This document shows, piece after piece, positions 26,546 to 64,000 of a stretch of DNA of 64,000 nucleotides. Source of the DNA: Apostichopus japonicus (taxonomy: Eukaryota; Echinodermata; Holothuroidea; Aspidochirotida; Stichopodidae); contig NC_092572.1 in assembly GCF_037975245.1 (NCBI RefSeq), positions 7,331,501 to 7,395,500 on the forward strand, in the 5' to 3' direction. The notes beneath the pieces are model-generated. The model was given only the letters and a program-made list of their open reading frames with translations, was not told the DNA's origin and searched no databases. How positions within the stretch are numbered: position 1 is the stretch's first letter; each line of letters begins with the position of its first letter. The position numbers and the translations under genes were made by a program.

Positions 26546-28283
26546 AGTTAAAATAAATTGGTTGATTTGTATATAAAATGATAGACATGTTTGTTATATA
26601 AAAACACTGGCAATTGACCTCACCAAAAACAAACATGTCAGATTTGGAGTTAATCGGACAAAGCGACAAACGTGCATTTTTAGTAAGTTGCTGCACGTTG
26701 TTACTTGTACGGAAGATGACGTGGGTATGATTATTTCACATGCAAAGTGTATGGATTCGCGCAACGTGCCCCGTATCAGCTGGTAAACAATGAAGCCAGA
26801 AAACAACATACTACATTATATTTATAATATGGACGCTTTCTTTCCACGTTCTATAATTTCATTTTTCGAAAAAAAAGCTCATAAATATATGCAAATTCTT
26901 TAAATAATTTACTTTTTCTCTAAAGTTTAAACAGAAACTTAAAAATATACGTTGCAGAAAATACAAGTACCTAGTGCATGCACAATTAAAATTTGAAGAT
27001 GCCGCTTGTATGTAAATTAGGCACATGGCTCATCCTACCATGCAAACAAACAACTAAAATCATGCCCGTCGAGCCACGCCAGATAACATATCGTAAATCA
27101 AATTTAAGAAATTAAAATGTAGATCTGCTGTATTAACGACTTCAAAGTAATAGATTTAACTTTGCAAAATAATTGCATAATTCATTTCTGTGTTCTTCAA
27201 ATAGCGAACATACACTCTTTTACTAATGAAGCTATCCATGTATTTCTGTTGAACATTGAATACTTCTTTACTTTATCGTACTTTTTGTTTATACACTTTC
27301 TTATTTATATGGAATTCTTTCTTTTTGATGAAATGAAAGCAATGATTTGTTTATGAAGTCAAGGCTCTTGGTGCCTCATCATAAGTCATTATTGATGTAC
27401 GTGAACGAAATATGTGTTTTGAAAGAGATCCATTATTATTTTAGCTGGCTACACCGTGGACTTACGTGTTGGCGGGGTAGTTGAACTGATTGAAACTTTA
27501 TGCAAACAAAAATATATACAATACTGACAGCGAATTTTACAACAAAATTCCAGCCAAAAGTGACGACCTAGTCCTTTCGGGTGCCCATGATTACCTTACG
27601 TAGTGGGCTCAACTGCTGTCTATGCAATGTAAGTACATATTACATACAATCAGCTAAACACAAATGTGACGAAGTACAATCAAGAAAAATAAGAAGGAAG
27701 AAAACTAAAGCAAGCAAAAATAAGAAGCTTTTGCCCAGTCTCCCAAAAAGGGTCTTTTATGTCTGGATCAGATAACATTGAAATTGTTAAGCATTTTATA
27801 TGTTTTTTTTCTTGTATAATGCATACGTTTTATTTTCTGAAATCGTTGTTAAATAGTTAATTGAACACATTTTTACATAATTTGCTTCTACATAGAGTGA
27901 AAATTAAACTTTATTTATGCAATTATCGTCCTAATTTGACATGTGTGCTAAGAAGGTCATAGGACAAGACGGGTTATTAATTATTGAGAACGTCTCTTTG
28001 TTTTATATTTCTATAGGTTACAGGTTCCACTTTCACTTATTTGTTGAATGTATTTCCAGTTACGCACCATCTTTAAGCTAATCCATGCTTTCTATAACCT
28101 ATAACACTGTTAGAAAAAAAACTTTTACGTTGCCGTTAGTTGTTCAGAATTTTGATGTTACAACTTTCACATTTATTGTGGCTATTCAAAGTAGGCATGC
28201 AAACAGAAACAAAACGTTATGAATACCATTATTTAAGATTTAAATAACTATTGGTTTATATCTTGTTTAATGCTTTCATACAG
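26546..28283. other. Duplicated 5' flank of gene B1
   Basis: Non-coding, but clearly similar to 52760-54088, for example ACGGAAGATG(A/G)CG(T/G)GGTATGA. No exon was recognised. Confidence 0.6.
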
Positions 28284-28403
28284 GAAGAACGGACTATGTT
28301 ATAAGGGAGACGACTCAATCATTTAAACTGACGACCTGAAGACAGACGTGTTGAGCTGCGCTAAGTCGCTACCTATTAAATCAAGCAGTCACCTTTCGAA
28401 ATA
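28284..28403 (+). other. Probable 5' UTR exon part of B1
   Basis: TGCTTTCATACAG at 28271-28283 looks like a splice acceptor, and the following 120 bp to the ATG are well conserved with B2 (54089-54207). A GTTATAA word at 28298 is an alternative core-promoter reading. Confidence 0.4.
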
Positions 28404-28458
28404 ATGGAACAGCAATATGTAACAACTCTTCAGCTTTTGTTACTATTTGTAATAACCG
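28404..28458 (+). CDS. B1 exon 1: signal peptide
   Basis: The ATG at 28404 is followed by [18 protein letters not shown], a short hydrophobic leader. The donor is ACCG/GTATGT, phase 1. The same start and length occur in B2 (54208), which supports this start. Confidence 0.85.
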
Positions 28459-31400
28459 GTATGTACTAACTTCTGGATACTATGTTGATAATCTCTTCTA
28501 CTATTTTCTATTTGCATGTATTCAAGACAAAAGAGTTAATTGTATTTCTTTTACATTATTTATTGAAGGATATCTGTCTTTGTGCGATGCGAGTTGTGAA
28601 AACTACAACCAAATGGAAGGTGAAGACATCTACCTGGAATGTGAAGTTAGCAGAATAAACGTTAGCATTTGGAAAAAAGACAACAAAACCTTACTTGTTG
28701 GCGAAAAAATCTACCGAAACATCCCAGGGTTAGAAGTATGGAAAAATTATACTCTACAACTGACGGGGGTAACTTTTACAAATGAAGGATATTATGAATG
28801 TATGGAGGATCGCAACGTGATAAAGTCGTACTGCGTTTCCATATACAGTAAGCAAATTTACATAAATCAGTAATGCTTTAGATAGAACGTAACAACTGTG
28901 TTAGTTAGATACGTTGGTTGTAAATAAAGTTTAACTTAACGTAACGAAGAGCAACAACATATTGACTTACGAAAGCAATGTAATTTTTCAAACGAACTCA
29001 AATGAAATATTTCCATCGAGAGAATGAAGTTATTAGTTCAGGTGACTCAATATTGATTTGAAACAACTTATTGGGATGGTACTTTGATGTTACTGTGCGC
29101 AGTTAAATGTTTTCGCCCTCTTAGAAAGTACTTTTGTTCGATTTCAAGTGTAAGAGTAGGTGTACTTATAGTGGGGTGATGTGCATTGCATCTTAGTACC
29201 AAAACCGATAACGTAATATGCAATAAAGGATAGCTAATTCATTAATATTATTTACACACACACCCACACACACATAAATATAACCCTTCGAACAGAGGTC
29301 AGGTGCACGATAACCTACGTTATACTAAACAACTTAGGAAGATAACTGGGACTTCCAGGAAAAGAATTGCAACATTACTTCGAGTTTAAATAATTAATAC
29401 AGCGTAACGAATGCATTTCCAAAGTGAATTACTATGCAAGTTAGATTACAATATCATATCAAATATTATCACACACCACTGCAGTTGGATAATCTACAGA
29501 TATTCCGACCAGTTAGCGCAATATTTGCATTATAACGTTCATCAGTTTGTCAGTGTAGAACAACTTGTGTACTGAAGTCTTTGTTTTACCCCCAGAGATG
29601 CAAACGGTTGTCATTTTGATGAATGGTAAAATTGTGGAGACACCAATTTATGCGAGTTCGAAACAAACTATCACCTTACAGTGCGTAGCCTACGGATGTC
29701 GACCAAGGGTAAACCTTGTATGGAAATTGAACTTGGTAGAAATCAACGAAGAAAGTGCTAACGTAGTAGTTTCTCATAATGCAAGTGAGCGAGGGAATGA
29801 CACATATGACATTTTCAGTACTTTTAGATTTTTGGTAGAAGACGATGTTTCAAACATAACTTGCTTCATAAGTGAGGAGATCTTCAACAAGAGAGGATAC
29901 TCTTTGTCGGTAATTGAAGTACGTAAGTATCGGTTTCCACCATTTATTGGTAACTCAAGAGGCTTACAACTGTTCAATATTACTTACATTTTTTAATGCT
30001 ATTACTGGATGTATTTTAACTACGAGAAACATCGTTGCATTTTTTGACAAGTATTTTTTCTTTATACTAATCTTTATTATTGAGAAGCAGTGTGTTTTTT
30101 TGCTGACACATGCATTCATGTTTACGGTATTAATGTATTCGTTGCCACTTATATATAATACAAAATACATTAAGGCAACTTTTAGCTATTCACAAAAATG
30201 TTCCTTAATTGATTTTATTTGGGACTAGTTAAGCATTTTTCATTTTACGTCATCAATTGTTTTTGTCTTCAATAGATGGTCGACATCATCGCATTCTTGT
30301 CGGTGGACTCATAGTCACACTTTTTATCTGCGGAATGATCATGTTTGTTCTGCGCCAATTATGTAAAGGTGAGATTGTTATATTATCTGTATATGCTGAC
30401 AGAGTGCCGTTCCAATTGACTTTCAATAAAACGAAGCCTGCCACTGAAATGATACACTACATATTAAGTGTTGAAGTAGAATTCTTCTTCTTCTTCTTCT
30501 CACGATCGATTATTGTACCCAACAGACGAATAATAATATTATAAAAACTTTTTATTATACAAAGTATCACATCAAGATATCTCATTCATTATAATGCAAC
30601 TAGAATATTAACCCCCCCCCCCCCCAGCTTATAACAACTTAACGCGAGTTCATGTACTCATTGAATGCAGATATTGAAAACAAGCTAAATTATGGCAGTT
30701 CCAATCTGTATGCAAATATGAACATGTATATCGCTCTTATTGATAGATTGGCCATACATTACATTAGTAGTTATATTGAGGTCATCTATACAATAGGCAG
30801 TGACAGTTATTTTACTTGTTTCGACTACTTCAGGAACGCAAAGAGAACTGCTGGTAAACATGAGGTACGTTGATTATTCAATTCATGCTGAGTCTAGACT
30901 ACTATAGTAAACCAAAGCAGAAATATTTTCATTATCGAATTAGACAAGGATTTGACAAATTAAGACGGAATATTTTACAGCAAAACAAACAAGAAAAACC
31001 AAAACCAAAATCAGAAAACAAAATATAAAAAACAGCAATACATTAAAATGTCGTCCTATTACAAATATCCTATTTTTGGTTAATTAATATGATTGAATCA
31101 AGTAAAATGAAAATAGCAACTGATATTGAGATGTTCTCTCTTTGTTTTATTCACTGTTCTAAGAGGAAAACGAGGTGCAAACTTTGAGCCAACTATTATC
31201 TTACGTATCATTACAAAATATGGTAGCATACAGACACATGGTCGAATAAGTTTTATTTGTCTCATTTATCTGAAGTGAAATAGTGAGAATCCGATCCACG
31301 GAAGCTAGTTTAGAAATGAGGGAACCACAGCACGAAGACTTTGAAAACCACAGCAATCACGGTAAATGTATTTCTTTTCATCACTGTTCCCATGTGAAAA

Positions 31401-34400
31401 CACGCTTAAAATCATCCTTTTTGTCATCTGCATACATTTATCATCCTAGTTTCTATAAAACAATGATTTTTTTGTACATTCTGTATTATCTCGTATTTCA
31501 GAGGAGAATTTACTTGTCCAAAGGAGAAACCAGTTATTTGAATGGAACAAAGCTAAAACAATGGTATTACTGCCGTCAAAAGGAAACTTGATGCAGTATT
31601 GGTTAGCCGAGTACGAATTCCCGGAACATCGTAAAGTTATCGCCAGATGTGTCTCTGGTAGCTTCCAATACTTTTAGATATTTCAACAGCTTATTAAAGA
31701 GAGTTGCTTTGTAATTCTATCTTCTACATCTTTGACTGCTACATTTCCAGACTATGGTTAAGCGCCTTTCTAACGTAAAGTAATTCTCAAAAATAACGTT
31801 TATCGCCCATTATGAGCTGTGGCTACTATAAAAAGGATTAACAAGATTATTAATGTTATACTGTTGAAATGTTATTCTCGAAGAAGAAGCAATTATTGAA
31901 GCTATCTTGAGCTTTGCATTCGATGATTTTAAATATGCAATAATATTGTAAAAAATTAGAGAACTCAAGGTTACATCAGTTTTGTAGTAACTCCGCTCAA
32001 AGCAGCTTCAAGTACTGACGCATCGTATCAATCGTTGTTTTTCAGACAAAGCCTTACTGGAAGATGCCTATCACTTTATGGATTTAGCAAGTCAACTTGA
32101 CACGTCTATTACCCATGAACACCTGGTGAAACTCCTTGGCGTATCTATTAATGAAAGTAAGTTAATATTTGCTTAGTATCATTTATTTTAACAGTTTTAC
32201 GAGTAGGAATATTGCTTTACATTAATAATCCACTTCGGCGACAATGCTACTTGACAATAGGTATAATTTAATTCCAAATTAAAACCACCAAGATGAATGC
32301 GTACATTTGATAAAGTTAGCCTTTAATACAGTATTGCTTTCAATTTTGTATCTTTACACAATTTGCATCTTCATCATTTCAATAATTACTTTCCAATAAC
32401 ACCTTTCAACATTTTTCATTCTTCCTTTTACGCAGTACGATCTTACACTTACCATGAATATGTTACAGGTGGTACACTGCGAAATTACCTTCTTAGTATG
32501 TTTGCAAGTGACGAATTGGCAAGCGGTCCACATGGATTCCAAACTAGCAATGCTATAACGCTCTGTATGATATCTAGAGACCTGTCAAGTGCTCTCATCT
32601 ACCTTCACAAAAGAGGGGTAAGAAAATTGTGATAATTGTGATAAAGGCCAATATGAAACAATGTGAAGTTCACGTGACATTGTCTATCTGCAATGTATCA
32701 ATTTCATTTAGAAACCATGCGGTTTCTTAATATGTCGTTGCAAGTTATATGTCATCAAAATCAAACGAATAAAAGGAGAAGAACTTGTTACAATGGACTA
32801 TTCTCAGTAAATAAAGATGAATTATACATCGGCATGTCAGTCTCTTTAATACATGGACAATCCCTGGACGATGACGCTTCCCCTTTTGAATTACTGTAAG
32901 GAGGGATTCTTAACTCACGTTGCGAAGAATCTAAAATCTTGCAAAATATTTCCTTTTTTAAAAGAAAGGTGACGCTTTCTGTGTTCGTAAGTTTTATTTT
33001 CACGGCCCTCTTCCAATGGTTATTTGGTTTTAAATTAATGAAAAGATAAGTTCATGGATAAAGCAGAGTTTAATATCAAGTACCACATAATTATTGGGGT
33101 GACATATATCACAGCAGCATATTTCATAAACATCATATTAAATTGATTAGTAATTTAAACCTTCTTTGTCTGTGAGAATATATTTCTTCACTCATTTGTT
33201 CTACTCTAAAGAAAGCATCGTCCATATAATGTTGGGTAGCTTTTTTTTTTAAATTTACACCTTGAATTCAATTCTCGTGTTATATTTGACAGTACGTTCA
33301 TCCAGGAATATCTGCAAGGAAAGTGTTATTAACCGATCAAGGAGTCAGCAAACTGTATGATTTTTTACCTGTACAATTAGCAAAAGTGAGAGTCGAGTCA
33401 TTGTTGAAAAAGGTAAGTATACTTTCACTGACATTGCATGTTCGCACGACCCTATATCAAATCAATGCCACATATAGCCTTTCTGGAAAAACAGATGTGT
33501 TATTTAAACAACGTTATCAATTCATAGCATACAAGTTAAATAGGTCATTTCCCTGTTTTAAAGTCAAGTTTTATATTGAATAAATAACAGAATAGGGACA
33601 ACTGGATTTCTGTATTCTTCACAATATTATGAAACAATTTATCACAACATACCCAAGCAAACAAAAACACAAAATGATAAATAGTTGTTTATCATTAACA
33701 AATTAGTTGATATTGCTACCGTTGAATTTTACACAAAGGATGACCCTCCCTTGCCGTGGATGGCCCCCGAAGTTTTGTTTTTAGACCAGTACTGCATGTC
33801 GTCGGATGTTTGGTCATTTGCGGTGCTGCTTTGGGAACTTTACAGTTTTGGTAAGTAATTAATTTATTTTGAGCTTTAAGAGAGTAGGGTAGTATATGTC
33901 ATAAGTACAAACGTACATGTTTGTCAATAAATCATACCCACCTTGTCATTATCTGATATAAGATGATTTAAAGTAAAGCGTGCAACTCAACTAGTAACAT
34001 GCAATTATCAACAGCATGTGGGACAGTTTGTTCTAAATTTATAAAGAGACACGTCTTTTGAAAACTATTTATCATCTATTGGCTTACAGAATATTACGAT
34101 ATAATTACCCCCAAAAAATGACCAAATGTGTGGTATATAGACCAAATCTAAATACTCGTTATTATTATAAGACAGAATTTTATCAGACTAAACTATGCAT
34201 CTTGTGTGTTGAAAACAAAATGCAAGACTGTAAATTGATCGGTAAAAGTAACGTTAGTAATGATTGGATATTGTTTCCCTCTAGGTGCAACTCCGTACAA
34301 AGAAATGACATCAGACGAAGTAGAACGATGTATCAGGCAATGTAAATACCTTGATTGTCCCATCTCATGTCCTGGTTCCGTGTAAGTGAAACAATAAACT

Positions 34401-35078
34401 CTTCTTAAAGTATCTAGTACTTGTCTTATTGTGAACAAAGCCTATATGGTAAAGGTGGTAACCCTGACCAACAATGTATGACACTGTACCAATTTGGTAA
34501 CAAAAACGGTAAAATGTATTAGGAACCTTTGATTGGAAATTTGAGTACAAACTGTTTAGTTTGAGGATTAATTGTAAATATGTCAACTTGTTAACTTTTG
34601 AAAGTCATCGGCGAGATACCTCATAAGGTAAGCTTACTTCTGGAATTCGCTCTTTATAATTATTTTTTTAATATGTTGTTCATTTAGCTGAGACCTAGCA
34701 ACGCAACAAATAGCCTACCCTAAGGTAGAAGTATGTAATATATTTCACGTCGGGCTCAACATCTCGCATTCACGAGAATTGACGCCAAAACTATGTTCAA
34801 TCTCTTCTGAAAAATTTCCGGATTTTATCAGTGATCCTTTTTTACAACGTCACAATCTGTTCTGAATGTTGTTATGACTGTTGCGATATTCTGCTTAAGT
34901 TTGTGTTGTTTAAATATCATTGTAAGTAAAAAACACCTCAAATGCCGTTCATGTTTATCATACATTAATTTAAAGATACGGTATAATGATCTCTTCTTGG
35001 GAAAAGGACTCGTCGAAAAGGCCATCTTTCGATAAAATTTTCTCGATGCTAGATGAAAATGCACTTTTTTATGAAGAT
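28404..35078 (+). CDS. Gene B1: Ig-domain receptor with tyrosine-kinase-like pseudokinase domain
   Basis: Thirteen exons join without a stop to about 580 residues: 28404-28458, 28569-28847, 29596-29922, 30276-30368, 30834-30864, 31288-31361, 31502-31657, 32046-32156, 32436-32617, 33293-33412, 33739-33850, 34285-34381 and 34976-35078. Order: signal peptide (1-18), Ig (about 19-111), Ig (112-220), membrane helix (about 227-246), juxtamembrane, kinase-like domain (about 300-575). The C-lobe has clear tyrosine-kinase features ([28 protein letters not shown]). Catalytic sites are altered: the beta-3 lysine site reads VIAR, HRD reads HPG, the loop asparagine is lysine, and DFG reads DFL. It should therefore not transfer phosphate, and may signal as a scaffold or act as a decoy (inference). 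The final exon after 35078 is unknown; reading on would end at 35114. Confidence 0.85.
28569..28847 (+). CDS. B1 exon 2: Ig domain 1
   Basis: Acceptor TTTATTGAAG, donor ATACA/GTAAGC, 279 bp, phase 1-1. The sites YLECEV, VSIWKKD and NEGYYECME give the canonical two cysteines and tryptophan. Several further cysteines occur at both ends (LCDASCE, SYCVS). Confidence 0.9.
29596..29922 (+). CDS. B1 exon 3: Ig domain 2
   Basis: Acceptor TTTACCCCCAG, donor GTAC/GTAAGT, 327 bp, phase 1-1. Landmarks are [17 protein letters not shown] and [10 protein letters not shown]-glycosylation-type sites occur (NAS, NDT, NIT). Confidence 0.9.
30276..30368 (+). CDS. B1 exon 4: transmembrane segment
   Basis: Acceptor GTCTTCAATAG, donor GTAAAG/GTGAGA, 93 bp, phase 1-1. 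It encodes [20 protein letters not shown] flanked by RHHR outside and RQLCK inside, a single-pass type I arrangement. Confidence 0.85.
30834..31657 (+). CDS. B1 exons 5-7: juxtamembrane and start of kinase N-lobe
   Basis: Exon 5 is 30834-30864 ([10 protein letters not shown], phase 1 to 2). Exon 6 is 31288-31361 (phase 2 to 1, using the acceptor AATAGTGAG). Exon 7 is 31502-31657 and ends at the less usual donor CTCTG/GTAGCT. The glycine loop expected in kinases is weak (SKGNLMQYW), and the lysine site reads RKVIARCVS, arginine replacing the ATP-binding lysine. Exon 6's acceptor is chosen because the neighbouring one gives a stop. Confidence 0.75.
32046..32156 (+). CDS. B1 exon 8: kinase helix C and beta-4
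   Basis: Acceptor GTTTTTCAG, donor GAAA/GTAAGT, 111 bp, phase 1-1. It encodes a helix-C-like stretch followed by [10 protein letters not shown], matching the kinase motif H-x-N-I-V-x-L-L-G. Confidence 0.85.
32436..32617 (+). CDS. B1 exon 9: kinase hinge to helix E
   Basis: Acceptor TTTTACGCAG, donor AGGG/GTAAGA, 182 bp, phase 1 to 0. It encodes the hinge [13 protein letters not shown], typical of receptor tyrosine kinases, then a short insert and [11 protein letters not shown] leading to the catalytic loop. Confidence 0.85.
33293..33412 (+). CDS. B1 exon 10: degenerate catalytic loop and DFG region
   Basis: Acceptor TATTTGACAG, donor AAAAAG/GTAAGT, 120 bp, phase 0-0. [12 protein letters not shown] aligns with the kinase loop VHRDLAARNVLL, so the catalytic aspartate is glycine and the metal-binding asparagine is lysine. 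KLYDFL replaces K(I/L)xDFG. The B2 copy has the same replacements. Confidence 0.9.
33739..35078 (+). CDS. B1 exons 11-13: kinase C-lobe
   Basis: Exon 11 is 33739-33850 ([29 protein letters not shown]), exon 12 is 34285-34381 (GATPYKEM, then CPISCPGS) and exon 13 is 34976-35078 ([20 protein letters not shown]). These match the tyrosine-kinase APE, DxWS(F)G and helix I elements; the usual glycine after WSF is alanine. Exon 11's acceptor (TTACACAAAG) is chosen to keep phase 0 with exon 10. Confidence 0.85.
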
Positions 35079-36914
35079 GTAAGTATCATGTTTATTTCTT
35101 TTCTTTTTTCTTAATTTTTGATTTTCTAAGTTTAAAACGCAAGTCTGAAAGTATAACGTTGTTGTTATTGCTACTTGGAATATGAATTGGTTGCAATCTG
35201 CTCTTCATGTTTACTATTAAAGAAGACACAAACTCAATCATCCTCTTTAACTCCTATGATAGAGAATGCTATTCCGTTCATTTGTTTATTTCTTATATTA
35301 AATCACAATGATATACATTTGTCAATACATAGTTATATAGCAATGAGGCAGTGGGGCCCTGAAAAAATAAGTCTTCGAGTCCTGACATTATGAACAATTC
35401 TCGAGAACATCTAAGGAAAGTTTATTCCTAATGTAAGATATGTTACTTTAGAAGTAGTATCTGGGAGCTGCCATTTTGTAACTAATGAGGAAAAACACAA
35501 AACATCCAAACACATGTAGCTCAAAGATTTTCAAATTCATTGCTTGAGTTGTTAGTTTTGTGTATGAAGGGACATGAAACCTGTGTTATCTTCTACTTTT
35601 TTAAAACTGTTGCGTTAGTTGTTACTTACGGTAATTCCAATTGATGGTTGTGTTGACGTCTCCTTGATTGCGAGACAATGCCCATACAATTTAAGTCATC
35701 GTGTGATGCCACACCCATGGATAGCTTAAAAAGTTTTTGTTGGTATATTAGGCGGTAATTGTTTTTTTTTTTTTTTACAAGAAAGAGAAGAAATGATAAG
35801 GTAACTTCTGTAAACATACAATCTTTAGTACACGAAGTAAAATAACAGATTCATGACAACATTTGTGGTTTATAAATGTTATTTGCTCGGTTTTATATCT
35901 ACCGGACAGGAAGAAAGGACAAGCAAAGATGTTACTTCGAACCATATTTACTTCTCTTTAGAGGCACACAGGGAAGACGATTACACATAACTATTGCGCT
36001 CTTCGGATACTTCTTGCACCGCTAAACAGTCAGACTAGTTCATATAGGTATAACACAGCAATATAATTGAAACAGCGGAGGTCAGTGATGATTGTAGGCT
36101 ACACAAGTGTAGTTAACACCTCAAGGTTATATGTCTGCATTTATTCAACTTGTGTGAACTTACCACTCACAACTAGATGCATACAATCTCACTTGTAACA
36201 TATAAGTGATAAATAACAGCCTTCTTTGACTTTTGTAAGAAAGCAGCTTCAATTTACGTTCTTAATCAAACCCTTCTTTTGCTATGAATTATAATGTGTA
36301 AAATGGCCCTCCTTTCATTGAAAAATAATTAAGGTCTCTTGGATGCTCGCTATTTGAAATGCTGAACAGAATAAGGTTAACAGTAAAATGCAAAGCTTAC
36401 TCTCCATACGCATAATAAATATAAAAACAAAGGTCAACCCAGTCAACACAGAACCATCTATTTGTAAAACAAAATGTAGATATATACGTTTTATGCATTT
36501 ACATTTATGTTGCAAAACTTTGAAAAACAATGAATAATCAATTACTTAAAATGTTTTCCTTGTTCCCTCCGAAAGAAAGTGATATACTAGCGTTTAATAA
36601 CATTATAGATAAGATAAAGTGGGGTACTTGGAATGCACACATTTTCCTTCATTTATTTAGTTTAATTGTTTTATGAACACGTATTATGAATATAATGAAA
36701 TCGCAATACTATTTCAATGTTAATGCTAAAGTAAATTTTGGCACATCGTTGCGAGAATCATAAAAAAAACGTAAAAACTACACTTTGGTAGGAATTTGAA
36801 ACAAATCTTATATTCTACTTCTATGTGATACATTTTGTTCTTTATCGACATATTCTAATTGTAAAGCTGGTTACTACAAATATATAAGAATGTATTAAAG
36901 ATTCCGAAGAAAAG
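35079..36914. other. Downstream of B1, no exon seen
   Basis: AT-rich sequence in which a terminal B1 exon may hide. Nothing with a domain signature was recognised. Confidence 0.4.
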
Positions 36915-37048
36915 GTTTCGAACCTCTAGACATAGTCTAGTGTTTAGGGTGTCCACATATAACGCGGGAGGCCCGGGGTAAATCCCGGTGGAGGCTTGAA
37001 GTTTCTTCACCGTTCTGCGTTTTCCAACTCAATACTATTCCAATTATA
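36915..37048 (+). mobile_element. Decayed tRNA-derived SINE
   Basis: It shares GGTTTCGA(A/G)CCTCTAGACATA, TTAGGGTGTCC, GCGGGAGGCCCGGG, CCCGGTGGAGGCT and TTCTTCAC(C/T)GTTCTG with the better copy at 55.5 kb. The A-box region is partly deleted and the B box is mutated. An (AT)n tract follows in both. Confidence 0.75.
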
Positions 37049-37076
37049 TATATATATATATATTAACATATATATT

Positions 37077-37116
<40 letters not shown>

Positions 37117-37150
37117 ACTATGGACCATAGGTACATATCATGAGTATATT

Positions 37151-37203
<53 letters not shown>

Positions 37204-37205
37204 TG
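37049..37205. repeat. (AT)n microsatellite
   Basis: Interrupted TATATA tract after the SINE. Confidence 0.95.
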
Positions 37206-37902
37206 AGCGATACAGGCTATAAAGGAATTTCAAGCTATAATTAATAAACAACAGACAGCGGTCTTCCTTGTCGCTTTCATCGTTCATTGCCATATTAGTT
37301 TCCATTCTTTCATTTTGAAATTATTATATCATTAGTGTAATTAGCATGTCAGTTATATTTAATGGTACCGTTTCTCTTCATTTGTGCATATCAGCATTCT
37401 TCTTCTTTTCTTCCCTCTGAAATTGAAAGTTTCTATTTCCAGAAATAATAAGGATGGCGTATAAACAGAGAGAATTTTACTATTATATAACGTTTTACAA
37501 TGATTATAAATGAAAGTAAATTATTCCATTGACATGTTGGTATGATGAGGTTCAACAAAATTACTTCCTTGTGTCTTCCTTTTTATTTTGAAAACAGCAA
37601 TGATATTATTATTTGCCATGCAGTTGAAATATACATTAAACCTGTATCATTCTCTACACATTGTAGTGTGTTCTTATTGCGATGCCGATACATACAGTAC
37701 AGCTGTGCCAATGATGCTTCTTGTTATAGCTTTGTACAGCAGATATGTTTATGTTCATATACATTTGTATAAACTAAGACTGAAACTAGTAGTGGGTCGT
37801 ATAGAATCAACATGCAAAACAAAGTTATGTTTTTTTTTTCTCAATTACATATCAGAGCAGTCATATTCATTAGAAAGAATGCAAAACTATTGTTAACAAC
37901 AG

Positions 37903-38099
37903 CGGCCCTGCCCGACCACCTTTTATTGCCAAAACCGGTAAAAATGTTATCATTCAGCGACGACCCAGGGGTTATCAGCCGCCCATCCCATCAAATGTAT
38001 GTTGACAATGTCACTTGGATGTGGTTGCTCATGGGATGCCTGGCTCCGCTTCTTTGTTATAAGTTCAACGATCAATGTTGGCTCAGGAAGCGAAAATAA
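37903..38099 (+). CDS. Possible terminal exon with hydrophobic segment
   Basis: After TTAACAACAG an open frame runs about 65 residues to TAA, with VDNVTWMWLLMGCLAPLLCY near the end and a basic WLRKRK tail. Local base composition is less AT-rich than its surroundings. Its phase (1) does not fit directly on B1 exon 13 (phase 0), so it would need a missing exon or belong elsewhere. Not recognised as a known family. Confidence 0.3.
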
Positions 38100-39089: not shown

Positions 39090-39257
39090 TCAGAAATTCG
39101 TCACCAAAGCTCATCGTGGTTGGTACTTGACAGTTGAATCCATGGTAACCAGAAGGACAGCCCGATGACCTGCACTGACCTGTCACTCGGTCACATGACG
39201 AATCTAAGCAGTTGCATCTCTGTAAGCAGTCAGCACCGAAGAATCCATCTTTACAAG
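39090..39257 (-). CDS. D exon: laminin-type EGF
   Basis: Acceptor TATGTATTGCAG, phase 1. It reads CKDGFFGADCLQRCNC, SCDRVTGQC and CPSGYHGFNC, eight cysteines in laminin-EGF-like spacing. The frame closes at TGA (39090-39092); a donor before that is possible. Confidence 0.75.
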
Positions 39258-42256: not shown

Positions 42257-42280
42257 CTGTTCATGAAAAATATAAAAACC

Positions 42281-54207: not shown

Positions 54208-54262
54208 ATGGAACATCAATCTGTAACAAGTCTCAAGCTTTTGTTACTGTTTGTTATCAACG
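54208..54262 (+). CDS. B2 exon 1: signal peptide
   Basis: It encodes MEHQSVTSLKLLLLFVIN with donor AACG/GTAGGT, and has the same length and phase as B1 exon 1. Confidence 0.8.
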
Positions 54263-54370
54263 GTAGGTACTAACTTCTGGATAAAAATGTTGGCAATCTT
54301 TCCTACTGTTGTATATTTGCATGCATTCAAGACAAACGAGTTAAATGTATTTCTACATTATGTTTTGAAG

Positions 54371-54649
54371 GATATCTGTCTGTGTGCAATGCGTGTTGTG
54401 AAAACTACAACCACATGGAAGGTGAAGACATCCACCTAGAATGTGATATTAGCAGAATAAACGTTGGCGTCTGGAGAAAAGACAACAAAACCTTACTTGT
54501 TGGCGAAAGTATCTATCGACACAGCACAGGGTTAGAAGTATGGAAAAATTTTACTCTACATCTTACGGAGGTCGCTTTAACAAATGAAGGATATTATGAA
54601 TGTATGGAGGATCGCAACGTGATAAAGTCGTACTGCGTTTCAATATACA
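54371..54649 (+). CDS. B2 exon 2: Ig domain 1, intact
   Basis: 279 bp, phase 1-1, with both Ig cysteines and the tryptophan ([22 protein letters not shown]). Most differences from B1 are amino-acid changes within the middle of the domain. Confidence 0.85.
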
Positions 54650-55158
54650 GTAAGTAAAGTTACATAAATCAGTAATTTAGATGGCACGTAACAACTGTCT
54701 TATTTAAATACTTCTAGTTGTATATTAAGTTTAACTTAACTTAACCAAGAGCAAAAACAGATTGACTTACGAAATCAATGTAATATTTCAAACGAACTCA
54801 AATGAAATATTTCCATGGAGAGAATGAGGTTATTAGTTCAGGTGATACACTCTGGCTCAATTTTTATTTGAAACAACTCATAGGGGTGGTACTTTTATGC
54901 AACTGTGCACAGTAAAATGTTTTCGCCCTCTTAGGAATTTATTAATGTTCGATATGCAGACAAACGGAATTTCAAGTAAAAGAGTGGGCAGTACTTAAGT
55001 GAGGTGATGCACTTTGCTTCGTAGTACCAAAACCGATAACGTAATAAGCAATAAAGTTTAGCCACGTCATTAATATCATTAACCGCCAATTCAACTCGCA
55101 AAAATAATGATTACCTACCTCCGATATGAACCATTGGAAAACCTATGCATGCATGTTT

Positions 55159-55392
<234 letters not shown>

Positions 55393-55524
55393 TAGGAATC
55401 ACAAATGATTTTCGAGATGGTTAGCATCATGTTTGATCTCTAGAGTAAGGCAAAATATGTCACCAAAAACAGAACTAGTATTGTTCGATACAAGTGTCAA
55501 ACGCCTACAGTGAAATTACGACCT

Positions 55525-55680
55525 TCCTTACCGGTTTCGAGCCTCTAGACATACAGTCGGCGTCCGTGGCCTAGTTGGTTAGGGTGTCCGCGTAGAAAGC
55601 GGGAGGCCCGGGTTCGAGTCCCGGTGGAGGCTGAAAGTTTTTTCACTGTTCTGGATTTTCCTTCTCATTGCGTTTTCATT

Positions 55681-55681
<1 letters not shown>
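55525..55681 (+). mobile_element. tRNA-derived SINE
   Basis: A tRNA-like head at 55560-55632 has an A box (TGGCCTAGTTGG) and a perfect B box (GGTTCGAGTCC). It folds as a cloverleaf with one acceptor mismatch and an AGA anticodon loop. A leader (GGTTTCGAGCCTCTAGACATA) precedes it, and TTTTTTCACTGTTCTGGATTTTCC-type sequence then (AT)n follows. A second copy lies at 36915-37048. Confidence 0.8.
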
Positions 55682-55767
<86 letters not shown>

Positions 55768-55768
55768 A
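55682..55768. repeat. (AT)n microsatellite
   Basis: TATATA tract after the SINE, abutting a truncated Ig exon copy. Confidence 0.95.
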
Positions 55769-55769
55769 T

Positions 55770-56582
55770 GAATGACGGAATATTTAGTTGTGAGTTATGA
55801 ACCCGTTGTACTCATTATATGGAACGTTAGCGAAGACATCTTGACGAGAGTGATAAGGGTATCTGCAATCATCTCACAAGACTCAACTTACTACGTTTCT
55901 TATTTGTAAGTTGCAATAAATGCAGAAGAAATTGCAAACATCACTTGCGAGGGTTTATGTCAACTACAATTATCAAAGGTAACACAAGCCTTTGCGGCAT
56001 TTGGTAATTTGAATTAGGCTACCTGCCATATTGATTTCATTATTGCAGCTTCAATTCACTAAGCTTGTGACAGGTATGGGCGGATGCAGGAAGCGGCTGC
56101 AGGACTGTGTGTAGGCGTTCAGCGATATCATTGATGGTAGAGGGTATTGGAGAAGCCATACCACATAACAATATTTCCTTCTTTTTAAAGTCATACTACA
56201 GCAGTTATTAACACTAATAATCACTTTAAGACATCAACTTAACATCATTATTTATATTGAAATGCTTTTTTTTGTTAATCTTACAGTTAAACCACGAATA
56301 CAGATTTTCGTTCAGGATTCGGAAGTGCTATCTACAGGATTTATGGAAGTTATAGTAGAAGTCAATTTTCACATTGCATGGGTTTGGTCATCAGTCAAAA
56401 GTGAAGCTACGATCAATGTCTGCTTATTCACAAAACCTGTCCACGTATCATCATGAAGAAGGAAATGGCACCCGTCGAATAGAAATAATATGGTTGGTAC
56501 CAATTGACGTCGAACGTGTAGTAACTTCATGTTCGGTTCAAAGAATGGTTTTTTATTTGGTACTCTATACACGGAATTTAAC
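55770..56582 (+). pseudogene. Ig exon pair, copy 1 (broken)
   Basis: The first exon part (55770-56002) begins abruptly at the microsatellite and has an in-frame TAA where copy 2 reads a glutamate codon. The second exon (56287-56582, after TTACAG) has a 5-bp deletion relative to copy 2 near 56380 that shifts the frame. The pair repeats about 1010 bp downstream. Confidence 0.8.
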
Positions 56583-56719
56583 GTACATCTTACATGAAAT
56601 GCGGTTTTCTTTAAAATCCAATGCTTCCTTCATAGATACAATTCCTCAACATCATTCTCCTACCATATTTACAGTTAATCATTCATTCGGATGAGAAGTT
56701 ATTTAATGTTCTCTTTTAG

Positions 56720-57012
56720 GGCCTTCAAATATCTTCATTCTTTACAACGAAAAATGTTGCCGAATACATAGAACTGTTGAATGACGGAATATTTAGTTGT
56801 GAGTTATGAACCCAATGTAACCATTAAATGGAACGTTAGCGAAGACATCTTGACGAGAGTGATAAGGGAATCAGCAATCATCTCACAAGACTCAACTAAC
56901 TACGTTTCGTATTTGGAAGTTGCAATAAACGCAGAAGAAATTGCAAACATCACTTGCGAGGGTTTATGTCAACTACAATTATCAAAGGTAACACAAGCCT
57001 TTGCGGCATTTG
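56720..57012 (+). pseudogene. Ig-like exon, copy 2, one-base frameshift
   Basis: Acceptor CTCTTTTAG, donor CATTTG/GTAATT. It starts PSNIFILYNEKCCRIHRTVE, then the frame shifts near 56780 to SYEPNVTIKWNVSED and ANITCEG. The length of 293 bp is one short of phase 1-1, consistent with a single-base loss or sequencing error. The first Ig cysteine is missing. Confidence 0.7.
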
Positions 57013-57299
57013 GTAATTTGAATTAGGCTACCTGCCATATTGATTTTTCATTATTTCAACTTCAACTCACTCAGCTTGTGACAGGTATGGACGGATGCAG
57101 AAAGCGGCTGCAGGACTGTGTGTAGGCGTTCAGCGATATCATTGATGGTAGAGGGTATTGGAGAAGCCATACCACATAACAATATTTCCTTCTTTTTAAA
57201 GTCATACTACAGCAGTTATTAACACTAATAATCACTTTAAGACATCAACTTAACATTATTATTTATATTGAAATGTTTTTGTTGTTGTTAATCTTACAG

Positions 57300-57599
57300 T
57301 TAAACCACGAATACAGATTTTCGTTCAGGATTCGGAAGTGCTGTCTACAGAATCTATGGAAGTTATAGTAGAAGTCAATTTTCACATTGCATGCATTGGG
57401 TTTGGTCATCAGTCAAAAGTGACGCTACGATCAATGTCTGCTTATTCACAAAACCTGTCCACGTATCATCATGAAGAAGGAAATGGCACCGGTCGAATAG
57501 AAATAATATGGTTGGTACCAATTGACGTCAGACGGGTAGTAACTTCATGTTCGGTTCAAAGCATGGTTTTTTATTTGGTACACTATACACGGAATTTAC
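57300..57599 (+). CDS. Ig-like exon, copy 2, open
   Basis: Acceptor TTAATCTTACAG, donor TTAC/GTACCA, 300 bp, phase 1-1. It encodes VKPRIQIFVQDSEVLST, HIACIGFG, GRIEIIWLVP and VVTSCSVQS: two cysteines, but an unusual core. It has no counterpart in B1. Confidence 0.65.
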
Positions 57600-59394
57600 G
57601 TACCACAAACACGTAATGAAATGCTTTTATTTTTAAAATTTGGAACGTTTTCACTGACACAGAACGGTCGATCAAGCAAAAGATTTACAGTTCATCAAAT
57701 TGTGATGACATATTTAGAGCTTAGGATAAGTCAGAAGTGTATCACAATTTATGATGAACGACCACGATAGATAACATAAATATGTAACATTTCTGTATAA
57801 GCAGCCAAATTAGTGATAAAACGCAAAATTGGGTTCGTCTCACCAACAACAAAGGATGCTTACTTATCGCAATACAACTTCAACCAGTTACAAAACAAAA
57901 ACATCAGCGTTGACATCAATACAATGTCAGGACGGTTACCATTGTAAGATATGTTTGGTTACTTTCCATGAATAGTTCTTAAACTTAAGGTATAATTTGA
58001 GGCATATCGGTTACGCTATATCGTTTTCAAACTTCAAGACACATGGTATGGGTTTGCTATTACATTAATTTAGTGTTACATTAACCATTATTTGGGCGCT
58101 TAAGACTAATATTTACCTATGTTACGGATCCAAGGCAATATCATTCCATAAGAATGATCAAGATATTGTAACGTCACTCCCCTGTCTGGTGGGGCAATCT
58201 TCAAAAGCTGGAGTTGGCGACATGGAGTCTCGACAAAAAGATGGCAATGGAAAATATATTCAAGTTCCCTTGGCACAGTGGTACCGTTTATTCAAACGAT
58301 TTTGTCTGCAAAATCCACCAACGGGCCCTTATTCCTTGGCCTGAGGCACATCTCCTCCGTGTCTCCGTCTAGTCTATGGATCCTTTTATCGCATCAACAC
58401 AGCATCATCCACCACGCATCGCCTCCCCTAAAAACATGCTACTTTCCTCCAACCACGTTCAGCAATGTCTTTCGAACCGGCCCTAAAAGTACATATTTCA
58501 TACTCTCAAATCTTCCGATCTCAAAAATAGGAGTTGTATTCTTTCCGGTCTTATTCTTTCCCTTTCGCTGGAGCGCCTTACGGCGGAAACAGCAATATAC
58601 AAGACATATCGTAACGTATCAGATCGTAGACCTTAGATCCGTTGATGTTGGCATCGGTGAAGATGCGGACTTCTGTCGTCTCGAAATTGTCTGCTTCTTT
58701 GTCGATCGTTGAGGTTGCGAATTCGGAGTATCCGGAGGGTCTCCTTCAGGAAAGCAGGGACATGTTCACTATAGTTCTCACTGGTAGTGTTGAATTTGGC
58801 GTTTGCTTCCATAACGATATCTGAGTAGGTAGCTGCGCTGGTCTGAGCAATGTTGATTGGTGTGGATGAATTTGTAGCAACTGCGATGCTTTTTATAGCT
58901 GGATTCGTGCAAAGGCTGAGTGGGTGTTGACCACCGCACTGAAGACAAGTCTTCTAACTGGTACAGTTGGCTGCTCTGTGGCAGAATGGCAGCTGTGGCA
59001 TTGGGTTGGTTTGAAGGTGTGGTGGATTTGCTGGACGTCCAAGCGACAGTTGCAGATTTAGATACCGTTGGCTATGGCTTTGGACTTCATACTTTGGGTG
59101 TTGAAGGTAACAGCTATTTTTTGGATCGAAATTTGCGTATCTTTTACACGGAAGCGGCTTTCGTTGACTGGCGGTAGATCCCTAGGTTGATGGAGGTAGT
59201 TGAAAGACGTGAAGGTACGTTGATGATGAGAGCTTCCATGTTGTCTCGTTGAGTTCCAGATGAGGAATGACAATGCACATTACCATCAGCTCATTTTTTA
59301 CTAGCCTGAACATTGGCGTAAGTTAAGAGTATTTACTACTTCAAAGAACTCTGCCTCTGAGTTTCGGTCACCAGTCTTCCGGAGACCGGAAAGT
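57600..59394. other. Insertion-derived region of B2 intron, possible retroelement piece
   Basis: No B1 counterpart. A GC-richer block (about 58170-59390) has a minus-strand CLQCGGQHPLSLC motif (about 58903-58955), a C-x2-C-x3-H-x4-C knuckle as in gag of BEL/Pao-type retrotransposons, preceded by a stop. The evidence is a single motif. Repeat of the flanking intron resumes at about 59394. Confidence 0.3.
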
Positions 59395-59714
59395 TCAACC
59401 TTTCGAACAAATGCCAGATGCAAGATTTCTTACGTCATGCTAAACAATTTAGGAAGATAACGGGGATTTCCCGGAAAAGATCGCAGCATTATTTCAAGTT
59501 TACAAAATAAAAACAGCGCAACAAACGAATTTCCAAAGTGAAAATACTATGCAAGTTTGGTTACAATATCATATCAAATATTAACGTGACACACACCAAT
59601 GCAGGGGGTAATCTACAGATATTCTGACCAGTTAGCCCAATATTTGCATTATAACGTTCATCAGTATGTCAGTCTAGAACAACTTCTGTACTAAAGTCTT
59701 TGTTTTACCCCCAG

Positions 59715-59845
59715 TGATGCCAACGGTTGTCATTTTGATAGATGGGAATATTGTGAAGACACCAATGTATGCGAGTTCGAAACAAAATATCACCTTACAG
59801 TGCGTTGCCTACGGATGTCGACCAAGGGTAAACTTAGTATGGTAA
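59715..59845 (+). pseudogene. B2 exon 3: truncated Ig domain 2
   Basis: It matches B1 exon 3 from acceptor CCCCCAG through TLQCVAYGC to the core tryptophan, then reads TAA where B1 has AAA. The rest of the exon, including the second cysteine and donor, is missing by a deletion of roughly 130 bp. The substitution also makes an ATG/GTAAGT donor-like site at 59842. Confidence 0.85.
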
Positions 59846-60264
59846 GTGAACTTGTTAGAAATCAACAAAAAATGTGCCAAGGAAGTAGTTTCAAATAATG
59901 CAAGTGAGCGAAGGAGTAACACATGTATCATTTTCATTATGACGTCAGGCATACCGCTGTTCAATATCACTTAAATTTGTTGATTCTTTTACTGTATGTG
60001 TTTCAACTACGAGAAACATCGTTGCTTTTGTGACATGTATTTTTCTCTATACAAATCTTTATTATTGAAAAGCAGTGAATTATTTGCTAACACATGCATT
60101 CATGTTGAAATTCTTAATGTATTCGTTGCCATTTATATATAATACGAAATACATTGAACTCAAGGCAACTTTTAGATTCTCACAAAAATGTTCCTTGATT
60201 GATTTTATTTGGGACTAATTAAGCATTTTTCAGTTGCGTCATCAATTGTTTTTGTCTTCAATAG

Positions 60265-60361
60265 ATCGGCAACATCATCGCATTCTTGTCGGTGGAGTCA
60301 TAGTCACACTTATTATCATTCTGCGGAATGATCATGTTTGTTCTGCGTCAATTATGTAAAG
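60265..60361 (+). pseudogene. B2 exon 4: membrane exon with 4-bp insertion
   Basis: 97 bp against 93 in B1: CTTATTATCATTCTGCGG replaces CTTTTTATCTGCGG. The frame shifts within the membrane helix and reaches a stop at the end of the exon. Confidence 0.9.
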
Positions 60362-60817
60362 GTGAGATCTTCATGTTGTCTTTTCATGCTGACAGAGGGC
60401 CGTTCCAATTGATTTTCAATAAAACGAAGTCTGCTACTGAAATGATGCACTACATATTAAGTGTTGAAATATAATTACGTAACGTCAAACGATCGAGTAT
60501 TGTACCCCAACAGACGAATCATAATATTATTTGGCAAAAGTTTTTATTATACAAAATATCACATCAAGATATCTCATTTACTATCATGCAACTAGTTTAT
60601 TAAAACCCCCAGCTTATAACAACGTAACACGAGTTTATGTACTCGTTGAATGCAGATATTGAAAACAAGCTAAATTATGGCAGTTCTAATCTGTATGCAA
60701 ATATGAACATGTATATCGCTCTTATTGATATATTGGCCATACATTACATTAGTAGTTATAATGAGGTCATCTATACAATTGGCAGTGACAGTTATTTTAC
60801 TTGTTTCGACTACTTAG

Positions 60818-61634
60818 GAACGCGAAGAGAACTGCTGGTAAACATGAGGTACGTTGATTATTCAATTCATGCTGAGTCTAGACTACTAGTAAACCAAAGC
60901 AGAAAAATGTTCATTATCGAATTAGACAAGGATTTGACAAATTAAGACGGAATATTTTACAGCAAAACAAACAAGAAAAACCAAAATCAGAAAACAAAAT
61001 ATAAAAAAAACAGCAATACATTAAAATGTCGTCCTATTACAAATATCCTATTTTGGTTAATTAATATGATTGAATCAAGTAAAATGAAAATAGACACTGA
61101 TATTGAGATGTTCTCTCTTTGTTTTATTCACTGTTCTAAGAGGAAAACGAGGTGCAAACTTTGAGCCAACTAATATCTTACGTATCATTACAAAATATTG
61201 TAGCATACAGACACATGGTTGAATAAGTTTTATTTGTATTATTTATCTGAACTGAAATAGTGAGAATCCGATCCACAGAAACTAATTTAGAAATGAGGGA
61301 ACCACAGCACAAAGACTTTGAAAACCGCATCAATCACGGTAAATGTATTTCTTTTCATCACTGTTCCCATGAGAAAACACGTTTAAAATCATCCTTTTTG
61401 TCATCTGCATACATTTATCATCCTAGTTTCTATAAAACAATGATTTTTTTGTACATTCTGTATTATCTCGTATTTCAGAGGAGAATTTACTTGTCCAAAG
61501 GAGAAACCAGTTATTCGAATGGAACAAAGCTAAATCAATGGTATTACTGCCGTCAAAAGGAAACTTGATGAAGTATTGGTTAGCCGAATACGAATCCCCT
61601 GAACATCGTAAAGTTATCGCCAGATGTGTCTCTG
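60818..61634 (+). pseudogene. B2 exons 5-7
   Basis: 60818-60848, 61265-61338 and 61479-61634 match B1 in length and phase, and individually stay open. The lysine-site arginine (RKVIARCVS) is conserved. Confidence 0.75.
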
Positions 61635-62021
61635 GTAGCTTACAATACTTTTATATATTTCAACAGCTTATTAAAGAGAGTTGCTTTGTAATTCTATCTT
61701 CTACATCTTTGACTGCTACATTTCCAGACTATGGTTAAGTGCCTTTCTAACGTAAAGTAATTCTCAAAAATAACGTTTATCGCCAATTATGAGCTGTGGC
61801 TATTATAAAAAGGATTAACAAGATTATTAATGTTATACCTTTGAAATGTTATTCTCGAAGAACAAGCAATTATTGAAGCCATCTCGAGCTTTGCATTCGA
61901 TGATTTAAATATGCAGTAATATTGCAAAGAATTAGAGAACTCAAGGCTACATCAGTTTTGTAGTAACTCCGCTTAAAGCAGCTTCAAGTAATGACGCATT
62001 GTATCAATCGTTGTTTTTCAG

Positions 62022-62131
62022 ACAAAGCCTTACTGAAAGATGCCTATCACTTTATGGATTTAGCAAGTCAACTTGACACGTCTTTTCTCCTGAACACCTG
62101 GTGAAACTCCTTGGCGTATCTATTAATGAAA
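62022..62131 (+). pseudogene. B2 exon 8 with 1-bp deletion
   Basis: 110 bp against 111 in B1; GTCTTTTCTCCTGAACACC replaces GTCTATTACCCATGAACACC, shifting the frame to a TGA. Confidence 0.9.
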
Positions 62132-62428
62132 GTAAGTTAATATTTGCTGAGTATCATTTGTTTAAACAGCTTTACGAGTAGGAATATAGCTTTGCATTAA
62201 TAATCCACTTCCGCGACAATGCTATTTGACAATAGGTATAATTAAATTCCGAATTAAAACCACCAAGATGAATGCGTACATTTGATAAAGTAAGCCCTTA
62301 ATACAGAATTGCTTTCAATTTTCTATCATTACACAATTTGCATCTTCATAATTTCAATAATTACTTTCCAATAACACCTTTCAACATTTTTCATTCTTCC
62401 TTCTACACTTACCATGAATATGTTACAG

Positions 62429-62577
62429 GTGGTACACTGCGAAACTACCTTCTTAGTATGTTTGCAAGTGACGAATTGGCAAGCGGACCACATGGATTCC
62501 AAACTAGCAATGCTATAACGCTCTGTATGATATCTAGACACCTGTCAAGTGCTCTCATATACCTTCACAAGAGAGGG
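62429..62577 (+). pseudogene. B2 exon 9, original acceptor deleted
   Basis: Fifteen bases spanning the acceptor used in B1 are absent near 62402. A TATGTTACAG/GTGG site 27 bp downstream would be in phase and skip only the hinge residues, so the exon may still be usable. Confidence 0.75.
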
Positions 62578-63267
62578 GTAAGAAAATTAACAGTGATTAA
62601 GGCTAATATTGAACAATATGAAGTTCACGTGACATCGTCTATCTGCAATGTATCAATTTCATTTAGAAACCATGCGCTTTCTTAATATGTCGTTGCAAGT
62701 TATATGTCATCTAAATCAAACGAATAGAAGGAGAAGAACTTGTTACAATGGACTATTCTCAGTAAATAAAGATGAATTATACATCGGCATGTCAGTCTCT
62801 TTAATACATGGACAATCCCTGGACGATGACGCTTTCCCTTTTGAATTACTGTAAGGAGGGATTCTTAACTCACGTTGCGAAGAATCTAAAATCTTGCAAA
62901 ATATTTCCTTTTTTAAAAGAAAGGTGACGCTTTCTGTGTTCGTAAGTTTTATTTTCACGGCCCTCTCCCAATGGTTATTTGGTTTTAAATTAATGAAAAG
63001 ATAAGTTCATGGATAAAGCAGAGTTTAATATCAAGTACCACATAATTATCGGGGTGACATATATCACAGCAACATATTTCACAAACATCACACAACATTG
63101 ATTAGTAATTTAAACCTGCTTTGTCTGTGAAATATACTCTTCAATTTAACCAACCTTTGTTCTACTCTAAAGAAAGGAGCGTCCATATAATGTTGTTAAG
63201 TTGTCCTCACTGGGTTGCTTTTTTGAAATTTAAACAATGAATTCAATTTTCGTGTTATATTTGACAG

Positions 63268-63825
63268 TACGTTCATCCAGGAATATCTGCAAGGAAAGTG
63301 TTATTAACCGATCAAGGAGTCAGCAAACTGTATGACTTTTTACCTATACAATTAGCAAAAGTGCGAGTCGAGTCATTGTTGAAAAAGGTAAGTATACTTT
63401 CACTGTTAATGCATGTTCGCATGAACCCATATCAAATCAATGCCACATATAGCCTTTCTTGAAAAACAGATGGGTTATTTAAACAACGTTATCAATTCAT
63501 AGCATACAAGTTAAATAGGTCATTTCCCTGTTTTAAAGTCAAGTTTTATATTGAATAAATAACAGAATAGGGACAACTGGATTTCTGTATTCTTCACAAT
63601 ATTATGAAACAATTTATCACAACATACCAAAGCACACAAAAACACAAAATGATAAATAGTTGTTTATCATTAACACATTAGTTTATATTGCTACCGTTGA
63701 GTTTTACACAAAGGATGACCCTCCCTTGTCGTGGATGGCCCCCGAAGTTTTGTTTTTAGACCAGTACTGCATGTCGTCGGATGTTTGGTCATTTGCGGTG
63801 CTGCTTTGGGAACTTTACAGTTTTG
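63268..63825 (+). pseudogene. B2 exons 10-11: pseudokinase loop and APE region
   Basis: 63268-63387 and 63714-63825 match B1 in length and phase with few changes (HPGISARK and DFL retained; LSWMAPEV). Further C-lobe exons would lie beyond the window. Confidence 0.85.
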
Positions 63826-64000
63826 GTAAGTAATTAATTTATTTTGAGCTTTAAGAAAGTAGGGTAGTAAATGTCATAAGTACAAACGTACATGTTTGTC
63901 AATAAATCATACCCACCTTGTCATTATCTGATATAAGATGATTTAAAGTAAAGCGTGCAAGTCAACTAGTAACATGCAATTATCAACAGCATGTCGGACA

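Follow-up and report, generated by a model that had tools for sequence, protein, structure and literature searches.

A putative receptor tyrosine pseudokinase of Apostichopus japonicus and its expanded family with a substituted catalytic loop

The human receptor tyrosine pseudokinases are listed as eight proteins (HER3, EphA10, EphB6, PTK7, ROR1/2, RYK and STYK1; PMC13259870 Table 2), which, where their mode of action is known, are described there as acting through allostery or scaffolding. Expanded immune receptor families of invertebrates, as treated in the review PMC13428168, consist of many germline copies with immunoglobulin (Ig) domains and occur in clusters. The sea cucumber Apostichopus japonicus contains a gene, termed gene 1, that can be compared with both. 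It lies in a stretch of 64,000 nucleotides (the window) on contig NC_092572.1 of assembly GCF_037975245.1, positions 7,331,501 to 7,395,500 of the forward strand. A preliminary description, made from the letters of the window, had dealt with this single gene; the larger fact is that this gene is one of a family of roughly 100 loci. Among the openly licensed PMC papers listed, none described such a pseudokinase family, which is weak evidence of absence; two of them concern MLKL, another kind of pseudokinase.

Gene 1 was rebuilt as 13 exons on the forward strand (28404-35078), with 12 GT-AG introns of matching phase and a joined frame of 584 codons without a stop, for which the probability in random codons is approximately 7e-19 at the base composition of the window. 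The clean frame of about 580 codons in the preliminary description is thereby borne out, and its span stands as far as exons and frame are concerned; its end does not mark a complete gene, as 35078 is the final base ahead of a splice donor (35079) and not a stop codon. The profile search proposed there for the kinase domain returned the Pfam tyrosine-kinase domain PK_Tyr_Ser-Thr (E = 5.9e-47, residues 328-574), preceded by Ig_3 (1.4e-8) and C2-set_2 (3.8e-5). With an extracellular part, one transmembrane segment and a tyrosine-kinase domain, gene 1 has the layout of a receptor tyrosine kinase, the transmembrane segment and the signal peptide being identified by reading. Among solved structures, the ectodomain matched nothing better than Ig domains of the cell-adhesion type, and these weakly (contactin 4.6e-5, LRIG1 1.3e-4). 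Because the model ends at a splice donor, the C-terminal tail lies outside it, and a search for a tail exon found none. Read-through of exon 13 is disfavoured and use of its donor more likely, because a tandem duplicate of gene 1, called copy 2 (gene 1 being copy 1), has an insertion ahead of copy 1's stop.

The four replacements previously reported in the kinase domain all hold: the beta3 Lys is Arg (VIAR), HRD is HPG, the catalytic-loop Asn is Lys (SARK) and DFG is DFL. Equally, the C-lobe landmarks WMAPEV, SDVWSF and KRPSF are present and intact. Alignment with CSK places KGNLM opposite the glycine loop KGEFG and a Leu opposite the alphaC Glu, and by reading neither the activation segment nor the juxtamembrane region contains a Tyr. 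The set of residues of an active enzyme (catalytic Lys, HRD Asp, Asn and DFG) is not found in gene 1. By layout and residue loss, the predicted product is a receptor tyrosine pseudokinase.

The window's own assembly (671,581,487 bases, 35 contigs) was searched with the gene 1 kinase, giving 138 exon matches (best 133 of 519 candidates scored), and with exons 10 and 11 of a relative on contig C16, giving 150 matches (best 150 of 550 candidates scored). From the first search, 84 exon-11-type rows were picked by hand, excluding other exon rows and presumed ordinary kinases; from the second, 8 rows on C2, C5, C8, C9 and C13 were dropped. When matches no more than 3.5 kb apart were taken as one locus, the merged searches yielded about 108 loci with matching kinase exons, including gene 1 and copy 2. 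In two cases, neighbouring loci 3.8 and 5 kb apart may belong to a single gene. These loci are distributed over C12 (67), C16 (25), C1 (6), C20 (3), C11, C21 and C7 (2 each) and C3 (1). Exons 10 and 11 were both matched at 43 loci, exon 10 only at 13 and exon 11 only at 52, the last group being mostly counted without individual check, so that it may contain some ordinary kinases. Other members may be missing too, because a diverged relative, gene 3, is in neither search list. At a locus on C1 (L049, L043, L050), kinase exons 7-13 were found in order, along with two relatives of the Ig exons of gene 1, and the beta3 Lys is replaced by Arg (IVARCVS). Most other loci, where exons 10 and 11 alone were seen, probably encode receptors as well.

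Exon 10, which carries the catalytic loop, was read at 18 of 20 places and then at 5 of 8 more, and the addition of gene 1, copy 2 and gene 3 brings the total to 26 exons. In every one of them, the HRD Asp is replaced by Gly, Ala, Val or Cys, the HRD Arg by Pro and the catalytic-loop Asn by Lys; the third letter of DFG is never Gly, and the DFG Asp is retained. The HRD His is kept in 24 of the 26. The substitute motif that they share is HP(G/A)xxx(R/K)K...KLYD, and an alignment of 20 family rows shows fixed positions, including the invariant Pro and Lys of the new loop, so that some replaced residues are themselves conserved. In the exon 11 alignment, the family rows keep the APE Glu and most keep SDVW. 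The kept residues, as aligned, are mainly those of a C-lobe scaffold (APE Glu, SDVW, HRD His and DFG Asp). Because three phosphotransfer residues are absent in every member read, an enzyme function of the family appears very unlikely.

As a check for bias, the 14 of the 28 places that had been chosen by matches outside exon 10 (13 by exon 11 alone, one also by exons 8 and 9) were considered separately. Exon 10 was located in 10 of these 14, and all 10 are dead; near three of the remaining four, exon-10-like matches lie just beyond the fetched stretch, their letters unread. When a typical active segment served as the query, only the same dead exons were matched among these loci. In a tree of 17 dead and 12 other rows, the dead rows fall on one side of a branch (96/94), with two long rows flagged, gene 3 and a JAK pseudokinase. 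After the catalytic motifs had been cut out, 16 dead and 10 canonical rows were split at 100/100, in a set without gene 3, the JAK pseudokinase and one of three array rows. These alignments are short (78 and 67 columns), the row set is without a close active relative and the branching order inside the family is poorly resolved. The sampled members group together as if they had come from one dead ancestor.

Copy 2 shares HPGISARK and DFL with gene 1, and the catalytic loss therefore predates their duplication. Copy 2 is disabled by six lesions, all of them absent from copy 1. Its exon 3 carries a stop and a deletion of 101 bases, exon 4 has an insertion of 4 bases, the acceptor ahead of exon 6 reads AC instead of AG, exon 8 has a deletion of a single base, and exon 9 lacks its first 7 bases. 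Between the copies, kinase exons 7-13 differ by 11 nonsynonymous and 10 synonymous changes, corresponding to a ratio of nonsynonymous to synonymous substitution rates (dN/dS) of 0.31 (binomial p = 0.010), or 0.29 once three deletion-adjacent codons are dropped. The ratio is 0.93 (p = 0.46) for exons 1-3 and 0.95 for exons 4-6, and all these figures span a period when copy 2 was already decaying. Exons 10 and 11 of relatives, for pairs with dS below 1.2, gave 0.19 for L038-L040 (p = 1.2e-5), 0.21 for L039-L040 (p = 1.7e-5), 0.14 for L038-L039 (p = 0.007) and 0.17 for L032-L033 (p = 0.02). Purifying selection has thus acted on the dead kinase domain in several pairs; the ectodomain is without such constraint between copies 1 and 2. 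The proposal of the preliminary description, that gene 1 is a retained pseudokinase rather than a product of random decay, gains support from the lesions confined to copy 2, from the kinase ratio between the copies, from the dead motif in all 26 exons and from the values of 0.14-0.21 in the four pairs of relatives. Retention of gene 1 under selection is likewise supported, several pairs being significant and most others not.

The last kinase exons of copy 2 lie beyond the window, in the stretch L012. An extra Ig-like exon occurs twice in copy 2 (55769-56586 and 56778-57603) and was not found in copy 1; the C1 locus has a related exon, and gene 3 probably has one too, by reading. The duplicated unit (17324-40000 versus 42281-64000 plus L012) has 91-97% identity from about 29960 on; before this point, identity is mostly 75-86%, with one 269-base stretch at 96%. 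This step suggests gene conversion or a second duplication.

The reading favoured here, with a probability of roughly 0.62, is that the product of gene 1 is a receptor that crosses the membrane once, has two Ig domains outside and a dead tyrosine-kinase domain inside, and belongs to a large family engaged in non-catalytic signalling. The Ig part would bind a ligand outside the cell, and the inner kinase-fold domain would engage an active tyrosine kinase, either as its scaffold or as its allosteric partner. Signalling may occur by contact with that kinase, in analogy to HER3 (PMC13259870), and would be independent of the receptor's own phosphotransfer. An immune or self-recognition role is the weakest step of this proposal and is suggested because it fits the size of the family, its duplication in clusters and the loose constraint on the ectodomain. 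A bolder version of this step, possible but doubtful, holds that a sea cucumber lineage turned a receptor kinase into approximately 100 germline recognition receptors, in which the substitute loop HP(G/A)xxx(R/K)K would hold a nucleotide or a partner kinase without catalysis, as the basis of immune or self-recognition by pseudokinases.

Several observations weigh against the favoured reading. The adaptor sites of a C-terminal tail fall outside the gene 1 model, and exon 10 was unlocated at 5 of the 28 places. The kinase ratio between copies 1 and 2 is based on 21 changes, its contrast with the ectodomain is borderline (Fisher p = 0.052), and the ectodomain value, indistinguishable from neutral, partly reflects the decay of copy 2. 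Differences between the copies amount to 20/673 bases in exons 7-11 and 108/2372 in introns i5-i11, so that the coding exons exceed the introns in conservation by a small margin only (p = 0.08). The four low ratios among relatives are non-independent, as three of them are pairs among L038, L039 and L040 and L038 has a stop. The values of the 17 other pairs lie between 0.29 and 0.92, and 13 are non-significant. Part of the family is decaying, with lesions in copy 2, a stop in exon 11 of L034 and of L038, and a stop in exon 10 of L045. These lesions, and the fact that most family pairs do not differ significantly from neutral, would suit a non-functional old burst of duplicated pseudogenes spread by segmental duplication. 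Such an origin is nevertheless improbable, considering that copy 1 is intact over 13 exons, that AG and GT splice sites are kept in 18 of 18 exon 10s and 21 of 21 exon 11s checked, that dN/dS is significantly below 1 for the kinase of copies 1 and 2 and for some relatives, and that the replacing Pro and Lys are invariant in the 20 aligned rows. The predicted genes form an expanded pseudokinase family and do not reflect simple decay.

Among functional alternatives, the domain could keep an unusual activity, or could bind nucleotide with little or no metal and use this binding as a switch. Compatible with this are the DFG Asp and the Lys replacing Asn, both present in all 26 exons, and the N-lobe frame of a C16 member, which by reading keeps the beta3 Lys (DVIAK); the Arg at this position in gene 1 and the C1 member, and the degenerate look of the glycine loop in the three N-lobes read, make it rather unlikely. 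Somewhat less likely still are decoy receptors, whose Ig part would take up ligand and whose dead domain would do no more than end or dampen signalling. The lack of activation-loop and juxtamembrane Tyr in gene 1 would agree with a decoy, and so would the adjoining four-Ig neighbour, which by reading has a glycosylphosphatidylinositol (GPI)-like end; a conserved kinase fold, however, should be needless for a pure decoy. Membrane decoys can lose the kinase fold, as in FGFRL1. A splice form of gene 1 that restores HRD and DFG through other exons is hardly credible: a motif scan of 28001-40000 in three forward frames found no such exon, its single match, HQDI at 30570, lying inside intron 4, and the relatives that were read are dead too.

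A family of about 100 loci that has lost the same three catalytic residues in each of the 26 exons read, with selection on at least some members, would constitute a natural experiment on the kinase fold without catalysis. Expression of these receptors in coelomocytes, if true, would make them a new kind of invertebrate receptor repertoire.

Positions of gene 1 exons and of copy 2 within the window
Feature	Position	Strand	Evidence
Exon 1, start codon and signal peptide	28404..28458	+	Exon rebuild; hydrophobic by reading
Exon 2, first Ig domain	28569..28847	+	Exon rebuild, Pfam
Exon 3, second Ig domain	29596..29922	+	Exon rebuild, Pfam (C2-set_2, Ig_2)
Exon 4, transmembrane segment	30276..30368	+	Exon rebuild; hydrophobic by reading
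Exon 5, juxtamembrane	30834..30864	+	Exon rebuild
Exon 6, juxtamembrane	31276..31361	+	Exon rebuild
Exon 7, N-lobe of the kinase with degenerate glycine loop and Arg for Lys	31502..31657	+	Exon rebuild, CSK alignment
Exon 8, alphaC region without Glu	32046..32156	+	Exon rebuild, CSK alignment
Exon 9, hinge to alphaE	32436..32617	+	Exon rebuild
Exon 10, catalytic loop HPGISARK and DFL	33293..33412	+	Exon rebuild, CSK and family alignments
Exon 11, WMAPEV and SDVWSF	33739..33850	+	Exon rebuild, family alignment
Exon 12, alphaG	34285..34381	+	Exon rebuild
Exon 13, alphaH and RPSF, ends at splice donor	34976..35078	+	Exon rebuild, comparison with copy 2
Decayed tandem copy 2, shares HPGISARK and DFL	54208..64000, continues past window	+	Comparison with gene 1

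Gene 3 is located on the minus strand of C12 at approximately 7.419-7.434 Mb and starts about 23 kb downstream of the window. Its exon 10 has 123 nucleotides and encodes HPCIQARK ... DMC, and its exon 11, with 112 nucleotides, has the length found in gene 1. The two genes share 47 of the 169 residues aligned across exons 8-11, and synonymous sites are near saturation; the N-lobe and exon 12 of gene 3 were looked for at its locus and not located. Exons related to a further Ig type of gene, with a V-set and additional Ig exons, occur near gene 3 (L016, approximately 8356-9189). Genes of this type are found in the window at 11667-11987, 17232-21469 and 42276-46324, one upstream of gene 1 and another upstream of copy 2; by reading, the last part of the gene at 17232-21469 is a hydrophobic tail followed by a stop, which is GPI-anchor-like. 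A single VEGFR-like gene joined from two parts, A and B (4 + 3 Ig), was rejected as the default, because by reading A closes with a hydrophobic tail and a stop of its own (about 21469) and B has a separate signal peptide. The segment 12205-14922 reads as a retroelement that encodes endonuclease and reverse transcriptase; one stop divides it into two open pieces, and further pieces lie near 23243 and 50697. L018-L022 on C17, C18, C19 and C21 apparently represent another tyrosine-kinase family that has expanded separately; their places are clustered, and their exons read HGDLAARN...DFG, with Asp and Asn intact.

The kinase domain of gene 1 matches the solved structures of CSK (117 bits), FGFR4 (116) and BTK (116) equally well, and because of this tie no kinase family is claimed. 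Exons 10-13 measure 120/112/97/103 nucleotides. Exons 17-20 of KIT, with 123/112/100/106 nucleotides, resemble these sizes and also the 123/112 nucleotides of exons 10 and 11 in gene 3, although literature searches gave no confirmation of the KIT values. By reading exon 9, the alphaD-alphaE insert comprises about 20 residues. Exon 12 ends in phase 2 ahead of YGIMISSW (exon 12|13), and a phase-2 intron at alphaH is the feature given in support of the longDE clade, including the FPVR group (PMC8662651). Through this intron and its Ig ectodomain, gene 1 resembles the FGFR, PDGFR and VEGFR receptors, and kinship with them within longDE is plausible. In contrast to the FGFR and PDGFR-VEGFR-KIT receptors, the catalytic motifs of gene 1 are lost.

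The A. japonicus family shares with the expanded invertebrate immune receptor families the many germline copies, the Ig domains and the clusters (PMC13428168); the word "kinase" occurs 0 times in the main text of that review. With the human receptor tyrosine pseudokinases it shares the receptor tyrosine kinase layout and a kinase domain without catalytic motifs (PMC13259870). PTK7, ROR, RYK and STYK1 have an HKD loop, which HPG of gene 1 does not match (PMC13259870 Table 2), and HER3, EphA10 and EphB6 combine HRN, HRG or HRS with an intact GXGXXG, unmatched by HPG with SKGNLM (PMC13259870). Judged by catalytic-loop type as tabulated, the predicted gene 1 protein is none of the eight. According to the same source (PMC13259870), the HRD Arg is kept or Lys in all eight human proteins, whereas it is Pro in the A. 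japonicus family; Lys in place of the catalytic-loop Asn appears in none of them, and none loses the glycine loop, beta3 Lys, alphaC Glu, HRD Asp, Asn and DFG together. The human pseudokinases are listed as eight separate genes (PMC13259870), whereas the sea cucumber has a family of about 100 loci.

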